NCBI RefSeq assembly: GCF_007829875.1 | Contig: NZ_VIWV01000001.1 | Span: 6,170,501 to 6,234,500 of the forward strand | Direction: 5' to 3' | Source of the DNA: Streptomyces capillispiralis | GTDB lineage: Bacteria > Actinomycetota > Actinomycetes > Streptomycetales > Streptomycetaceae | DNA: 64,000 nt | Part shown: positions 13,592 through 14,419 of the stretch, one piece after another | Layout: every line of letters begins with the position of its first letter | How positions within the stretch are numbered: position 1 is the first letter of the stretch | Translations under genes and position numbers: made by a program | Notes under the pieces: generated by a model | Told to the model about the DNA's origin: nothing | Seen by the model: only the letters and a program-made list of their open reading frames with translations | Database searches by the model: none

Positions 13592-13622
13592 TTGACCTCA
13601 AGTCCGGTTGAGGTCGGAGGGT
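13592..13622 (+). promoter_or_regulatory. SoxR box within a 19-bp-spacer promoter
   Basis: CCTCAAG-TCCG-GTTGAGG (13596-13613) is a near-perfect match to the 18-bp SoxR operator, whose outer arms GACCTCAA and TTGAGGTC form an exact inverted repeat. It sits between a -35 element TTGACC (13592-13597) and a -10 element GAGGGT (13617-13622) separated by 19 bp, the over-long spacing used by MerR-family activators such as SoxR. The promoter faces the monooxygenase gene that starts 30 bases downstream. Confidence 0.8.
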
Positions 13623-13651: not shown

Positions 13652-14419
13652 ATGCGTACGACCCGGCAGCCCGACCTCGCCGACCCGCGGATCGGGGCGT
13701 CCCTGTTCAGCACCTGGCGGGTGGGCACGCCCGAACGGCAGCGGCAGGCCGTCGAGGCCATCGGACGGACCTGGGAGCGGCGGCCCTGGCCGGCCCGTGA
13801 TCTGCTCGGCTACCACGTCTACGCGGGCGAGGACGGGGACACGCTGCTGCACTACTCGCAGTGGGCGAGTGAGGGGGCGTACGAGTCGTTCGTGAAGACG
13901 CACCGGCAGGAGCGGGTGGACGAGATCGACACCGCCGTGCCGGGGATCGAGCGGGTGGCGCTGCACCGGTACCGGCACTACCGCAGCGGGGTGCGGGACG
14001 GCAGCCCGGTGCCCGGGTGCGTGGTGATCGTCGACGTCGAGTTCGAGGGCTCCGACGCCGGACGGCTGCGGAGCTGGACCGACGCCGTCTTCGAGGCGCT
14101 GGAGGGTGAGGCCGAGCCGCCCGCGGGCGGCATCTCCGCCCACTTCCACCTCGGGACCGACGGGGACCGGGTGCTCAACTACGCGGAGTGGGAGAGCGCC
14201 CGGGCGCACCGGGACGCCCTGGCCGCGCCCGGACCGGGAATCGGGTCGGGGAGCGCCGCGTGGCGCCGGGTGCAGGAGTGGCCCGGGCTGCGGAGCAGCA
14301 CCGTCCGGCGGTACGTGCACGCGCTCGGGCTCGTGCCCGGCGGGGCCGGCCGAAGGGTTCGGCCGGCCCCGGGCGGGACTACGGACGGAACCGCAGGACC
14401 TGCGGGTCGTGGTCGCTGA
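13652..14419 (+). CDS. ecaB: EcaB-like antibiotic biosynthesis monooxygenase, SoxR target
   Basis: A 255-residue protein with two tandem ABM-like ferredoxin folds: residues about 15-110 (FSTWRVGTPERQRQAVEAI to HYSQWASEGAYESFV) and about 125-225 (CVVIVDVEFEGSDAGRL to LNYAEWESARAHRDA). Such monooxygenases oxidise quinone-like or redox-active compounds without metal or flavin. The SoxR box in its promoter and its position relative to dapD match what I recall for S. coelicolor ecaB (SCO1909), induced by redox-active antibiotics. The ATG follows GGAGGA. The last 41 bases overlap the convergent nuclease gene, and a terminator hairpin is encoded inside its C-terminal tail. Confidence 0.82.
   Translation: MRTTRQPDLADPRIGASLFSTWRVGTPERQRQAVEAIGRTWERRPWPARDLLGYHVYAGEDGDTLLHYSQWASEGAYESFVKTHRQERVDEIDTAVPGIERVALHRYRHYRSGVRDGSPVPGCVVIVDVEFEGSDAGRLRSWTDAVFEALEGEAEPPAGGISAHFHLGTDGDRVLNYAEWESARAHRDALAAPGPGIGSGSAAWRRVQEWPGLRSSTVRRYVHALGLVPGGAGRRVRPAPGGTTDGTAGPAGRGR
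14342..14370. terminator. Hairpin terminator inside the 3' end of ecaB
   Basis: GGGGCCGGCCGAA (14342-14354) and TTCGGCCGGCCCC (14358-14370) form a perfect 13-bp stem with loop GGG. It lies before both convergent stop codons on the plus strand and directly after the nuclease stop on the minus strand, so it is best placed to terminate the nuclease transcript. Confidence 0.65.

Follow-up and report, generated by a model that had tools for sequence, protein, structure and literature searches.

Known SoxR-activated promoters

The closest described counterpart of the promoter analysed here is that of SCO1909 (ecaB) in Streptomyces coelicolor, where a soxbox likewise lies before a gene for an ActVA-Orf6-like monooxygenase; as given in the accessible text of Naseer et al. 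2014 (PMC4146615), SCO1909 expression was lower by 18-fold (RNA-Seq) and 30-fold (qRT-PCR) without SoxR and by 30-fold in an act mutant. The same text describes a SoxR regulon of six genes in S. coelicolor, tabulates boxed SCO1909 homologs in five of six other Streptomyces and mentions a transketolase of S. avermitilis, SAV_1623, that has a soxbox (PMC4146615). A second point of comparison is the mfsA promoter of Stenotrophomonas maltophilia, which has in common with ours a TTGACC −35 element, a 19-bp spacer and a SoxR box between the −35 and −10 elements, the layout described in that source as typical of SoxR activation (PMC4411124, accessible text). SoxR binding and SoxR-dependent expression were demonstrated for mfsA, which differs from the present promoter in its target (an efflux pump), its −10 element (CATGCT) and its divergent arrangement with soxR (PMC4411124). 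Redox-active compounds are described as oxidising the [2Fe-2S] cluster of SoxR directly, changing its binding and promoting open-complex formation (PMC5288332, accessible text).

The window considered here (the whole stretch of DNA analysed, 64,000 nt) had been suggested, from its letters, to contain a SoxR box within the promoter of an ecaB-like monooxygenase gene. We consider it highly probable that this promoter is a SoxR-activated promoter of an ecaB ortholog in a Streptomyces. The SoxR–ecaB system is already known from related Streptomyces, and the case in the window is real but ordinary; it extends the connection described in S. coelicolor to the present genome, with the activator site conserved at the level of single bases.

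Promoter architecture and conservation

The sequence-only reading placed CCTCAAG-N4-GTTGAGG between TTGACC and GAGGGT with 19 bp between the two hexamers, an arrangement that proved exact to the base (Table 1). The 18-bp box, CCTCAAGTCCGGTTGAGG, starts within the −35 element, sharing its final two bases, and the arms of the box pair at six of their seven positions, leaving the innermost G–G unpaired; 38 bp separate the end of the box from the start codon. The box thus lies between the −35 and −10 elements of a promoter with a 19-bp spacer, as expected of SoxR activation. The −10 element does not begin with the T of the canonical hexamer, which we count against reading the site as a SoxR promoter, and a sigma-70 consensus scan, limited to spacers of 16–18 bp, called no promoter.

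Table 1. Features of the ecaB-like locus, in window coordinates.
Feature	Position	Strand	Remarks
−35 element TTGACC	13592..13597	+	present in 80/80 aligned rows (window + 79 loci)
SoxR box CCTCAAGTCCGGTTGAGG	13596..13613	+	found in 79/80 relatives
19-bp spacer, −35 to −10	13598..13616	+	same spacing in aligned relatives
−10 element GAGGGT	13617..13622	+	A2 and T6 in 79/80 rows, T1 in 0/80
Likely ribosome-binding site GGAGGAA	13642..13648	+	assignment read from the sequence
ecaB-like gene	13652..14419	+	255 aa, two ABM (PF03992) domains
14-bp stem, 3-base loop	14341..14371	+	possible terminator between convergent genes
CGA codon	14351..14353	+	TGA stop in L017, the nearest relative among the best 80 of 239

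Loose matches to the box alone mean nothing, and conservation is the evidence that counts. Within the window, CCTCAAGN4GTTGAGG has a single exact match, and the three matches obtained when up to three mismatches were allowed are not above the number in shuffled sequence (mean 4.05). Across the 8.43-Mb genome, CCTCAASN4STTGAGG was found exactly in two places (the window site and one other) and with up to two mismatches in 29 places, fewer than the 50 obtained with the reversed control. Because the box-only scan with two mismatches was non-discriminating, the −35 element was added to the pattern. The extended form, TTGACCTSRAN5STYGAGG, which was written after seeing the relatives and with the window site in view, matched exactly in four places (the window site and three others) and with up to three mismatches in 83 forward and 89 reverse places, versus 53 and 35 for the control.

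Relatives were taken as the best 80 of 239 matches to the downstream protein in the genome collection; their records comprise 78 from Streptomyces, one from Kitasatospora aureofaciens and one labelled 'Actinobacteria bacterium'. In 79 of these 80, a box with 0–3 mismatches stands directly behind TTGA; relative to CCTCAASN4STTGAGG, there were no mismatches in 10 relatives, one in 41, two in 25 and three in 3. The remaining relative (L046) had six mismatches, and its record holds just 72 bp of upstream DNA. For comparison, 1,600 random 306-bp control windows were taken further downstream in these loci and searched on one strand; a box with three or fewer mismatches was present in 11 of them, in no case with TTGA in front. 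Mean information per alignment column was 1.63 bits in the promoter versus 0.17 bits in the flanks, with the −35 hexamer invariant throughout. The promoter geometry that had been proposed as that of SoxR activation is therefore conserved in close relatives. The aligned set of 80 promoters (window and 79 relatives) could also serve as a resource for testing SoxR recognition of asymmetric boxes.

One row alone departs from the conserved −10 positions; it comes from S. beigongshangae (L060, positions 2878–2951), where the ecaB promoter, including its SoxR box, is tandemly duplicated with the copies 43 bp apart. This row is the upstream copy, and the −10 element (GAGGGT) is retained by the downstream copy only.

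The ecaB-like gene and its product

The downstream gene had been assigned to the ABM-type monooxygenases, an assignment upheld by profile, repeat and fold evidence, which further identified a tandem ABM protein. The 255-aa product matched the ABM profile PF03992 at 35.6 bits (cut-off 23.1) when scored as a whole protein, a modest match in two stretches; a six-frame genome search with PF03992 listed six other places, the ecaB-like gene not among them. The two halves of the protein show homology to one another at 26% identity (E 5e-5), and phmmer matched the protein to ActVA-Orf6 (1LQ9; E 8.2e-6). An AlphaFold2 model, computed from an alignment of the window protein with 33 of the 80 relatives (mean pLDDT 84.3), had as its best fold matches PenE (9kdp, chain 9kdp_B, TM 0.68/0.73), a named anthrone monooxygenase, and the anthrone oxidase-like 5f9p. 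The ABM fold is common to the window protein and all three of these structures; however, ActVA-Orf6 is a chain of 112 aa, whereas the window protein carries two domains in a single chain, and its identity to 9kdp and 5f9p is merely 14–17%. As expected of ecaB, the gene behind the promoter encodes an ActVA-Orf6-like ABM monooxygenase.

The surroundings of the gene also recur among its relatives. Upstream, for the 69 loci with 3 kb of sequence, the neighbours include a DUF3618 gene (58 of 69), a holin-like gene (53 of 69) and a DHDPS gene (52 of 69); downstream, a convergent nuclease gene is present in 74 of the 79 loci with 1.5 kb of sequence. Because the protein family, the box and the neighbourhood conserved among other Streptomyces agree, the window gene is very probably an ortholog of SCO1909 (ecaB).

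SoxR and other SoxR-type promoters

Absence of SoxR from the genome had been named as an observation that would speak against the proposal, and a search for the regulator found one clear soxR gene (TIGR01950, 242.6 bits versus a cut-off of 116.9), about 246 kb away from the window site. Its product matched Pfam MerR domains and carries CIGCGCLSLEAC, which we take to be the C-x2-C-x-C-x5-C spacing of the SoxR [2Fe-2S] site, so that a soxR gene with the [2Fe-2S] cysteine motif is encoded in the same genome as the box. The 3.4 kb surrounding soxR yielded no soxbox (best candidate, four mismatches), which fits S. coelicolor, where soxR has no soxbox and is reported not to be autoregulated (PMC4146615, accessible text).

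Apart from the window site, the exact matches to the extended pattern lie before a zinc-type quinone oxidoreductase gene (ATG 61 bp past the box), an ABC transporter that has membrane and ATPase domains (start 16 bp past the box) and the N-terminal half of a transketolase (start 15 bp past the box). The proposed match to the S. coelicolor regulon is strengthened by these sites, all of which precede homologs of published or proposed SoxR targets (PMC4146615, accessible text). The ecaB-like, quinone oxidoreductase and ABC transporter genes represent classes of the published regulon, and the latter two are boxed in both species; the transketolase half, in contrast, falls outside the six-gene regulon, and, unlike in S. 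coelicolor, none of the four exact sites precedes an SCO2478-, ecaC- or ecaD-like gene (PMC4146615). A search of the genome for an SCO2478-like reductase, with one query and no positive control, gave no match.

To extend the comparison beyond exact patterns, a promoter profile (R1) was built from 17 hand-picked sequences (the window promoter, those of 8 boxed relatives out of 79, and 8 promoters taken from two genomes). At E values up to 10 and with 150 of 1,819 first-look candidates scored, R1 returned from the genome of the window the four sites and the reverse strands of two of them, a result that is not independent, as all four sites were in the training set. With stricter filters, 60 of 61 genomes from the genus, this one included, had a match at E ≤ 0.001. 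Among the matches listed were 29 new loci, 27 of which precede homologs of six reference proteins (12 quinone oxidoreductase, 7 ecaB-like, 5 transketolase, 2 ABC transporter and 1 reductase), R1 having been trained partly on the same target classes as those it recovered; two of the seven ecaB-like loci among the matches listed showed just 32–34% identity.

The two remaining new loci carry SoxR-type promoters before a 143-aa protein (L190) and a 428-aa protein (L193), and a further SoxR-type promoter lies before a methyltransferase gene (L131); these three genes are possible additional SoxR targets. In the genome of S. violaceoruber NRRL S-981 (L093), the extended pattern had four exact and two one-mismatch sites, which precede ecaB, an ABC transporter, a quinone oxidoreductase, a transketolase-like start, a methyltransferase and a flavin-reductase-like gene. 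At locus L129, a SoxR-type promoter is followed by a transketolase-like start with no transketolase reading frame seen after it; this may be a target gene that has decayed while its promoter stayed intact.

Promoters of different target classes differed at particular bases. A G at box position 12 (13607 in the window), which breaks the dyad, was present in 76 of the 80 ecaB rows and in all seven ecaB-like loci among the survey matches listed, whereas all 14 quinone oxidoreductase promoters had a C at this position. The two reductase promoters had G, and the position was mixed before transketolase genes (four C, three G) and ABC transporters (two C, two G). A T at the first −10 position occurred in all four ABC transporter promoters versus none of the 80 ecaB rows. 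Such fingerprints could conceivably set the order or strength of induction, with EcaB kept tightly silent and responding late and the exporter responding early, a suggestion drawn from the bases at these positions that we regard as doubtful. The mixed position 12 before transketolase and ABC transporter genes and the G of the reductase promoters speak against it, as do the small size of the classes, their common descent and their selection by score; the fingerprints might equally reflect shared ancestry.

Alternative explanations

The palindrome could be a chance sequence without a role, a view in keeping with the genome-wide count, in which matches with up to two mismatches were no commoner than those of the reversed control. 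It is set against a box that keeps the same promoter position in nearly all of the closest relatives while the flanking sequence varies; we reject a chance origin on the grounds of this positional conservation, and, short of an artefact common to all records, consider it exceedingly improbable. That the site is functional would leave room for a different MerR-family regulator acting there in place of SoxR, given that MerR-type promoters share the 19-bp spacer, with spacers of 19 or 20 bp also reported for other MerR-family systems (PMC11049809 and PMC1526738, accessible text), and that 12 of the 13 genomic hits of the SoxR profile score under the SoxR cut-off and probably represent other relatives of MerR. 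However, the one SoxR in the genome scores far above the cut-off, the window box agrees with the E. coli SoxR box quoted in PMC4411124 at 14 of 18 positions, and the company of the three other exact sites, with their homologs of published or proposed SoxR targets (PMC4146615), also points to SoxR; we judge the involvement of another MerR-family protein to be very unlikely.

A further alternative concerns the inducer alone and is compatible with SoxR activation of ecaB as the best explanation of the promoter: SoxR may answer mainly to redox-active compounds of neighbouring organisms and not to an endogenous pigment, with EcaB acting as a general detoxifier. The sole PF04673 match in the genome lies in a cluster that looks like one for spore pigment (whiE-like), and S. 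coelicolor SoxR responds to foreign compounds too, among them pyocyanin, toxoflavin and plumbagin (PMC5288332, accessible text), both of which favour a foreign signal, whereas the dependence of the S. coelicolor regulon on actinorhodin production (PMC4146615, accessible text) argues for an endogenous one. On balance, we see a mainly foreign inducer as a genuine possibility, if somewhat less probable than the alternative. A search for phenazine markers gave no match in this genome, but none in the controls either.

The polyketide region itself, a type II cluster at contig positions 7383001–7403000 (L170), holds two ketosynthase-like genes, a cyclase gene and an ABM gene, together with a divergent gene for an aromatic FAD hydroxylase. 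We take its gene order to resemble that of whiE. An NCBIfam scan of the region matched 3 of 10 proteins (two ketosynthase-like and one aromatic FAD hydroxylase-like), and the other seven had no match. The presence of a whiE-like cluster is no evidence for a redox-active product.

Proposed mechanism

Taking SoxR as the activator of this promoter, a SoxR dimer would, by analogy with published SoxR work, sit on the box between the −35 and −10 elements, the 19-bp separation of which would be too long for efficient use by RNA polymerase. A redox-active compound (the type of inducer expected from published SoxR studies) would oxidise the [2Fe-2S] clusters, and oxidised SoxR would then distort the DNA, as proposed for SoxR elsewhere, such that polymerase could open the promoter. 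EcaB, a tandem-ABM, anthrone-oxidase-like monooxygenase, would be made as a result and would probably act on quinone- or anthrone-type aromatic metabolites, with the exporter and the quinone oxidoreductase predicted to be under the same control. The sequence-only reading is supported in those parts that sequence can test.

The 3′ end of the ecaB-like gene

At its 3′ end, the gene departs from its relatives. All 80 relatives (best 80 of 239) end at 226–241 aa, counted from the start of the match, whereas the window frame continues past the CGA codon (Table 1) to a TGA at 14417–14419. The 23 extra C-terminal residues are of low confidence in the model (pLDDT about 50–55), and the loss of the stop is either a real extension or a sequencing error. 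The nearby stem is predicted to be stable (−51 kcal/mol for 71 nt, z −3.68); it is without a T tract, and a consensus scan did not call a terminator there. The extended frame crosses this stem and overlaps the convergent nuclease gene by 41 bp at that gene's 3′ end.
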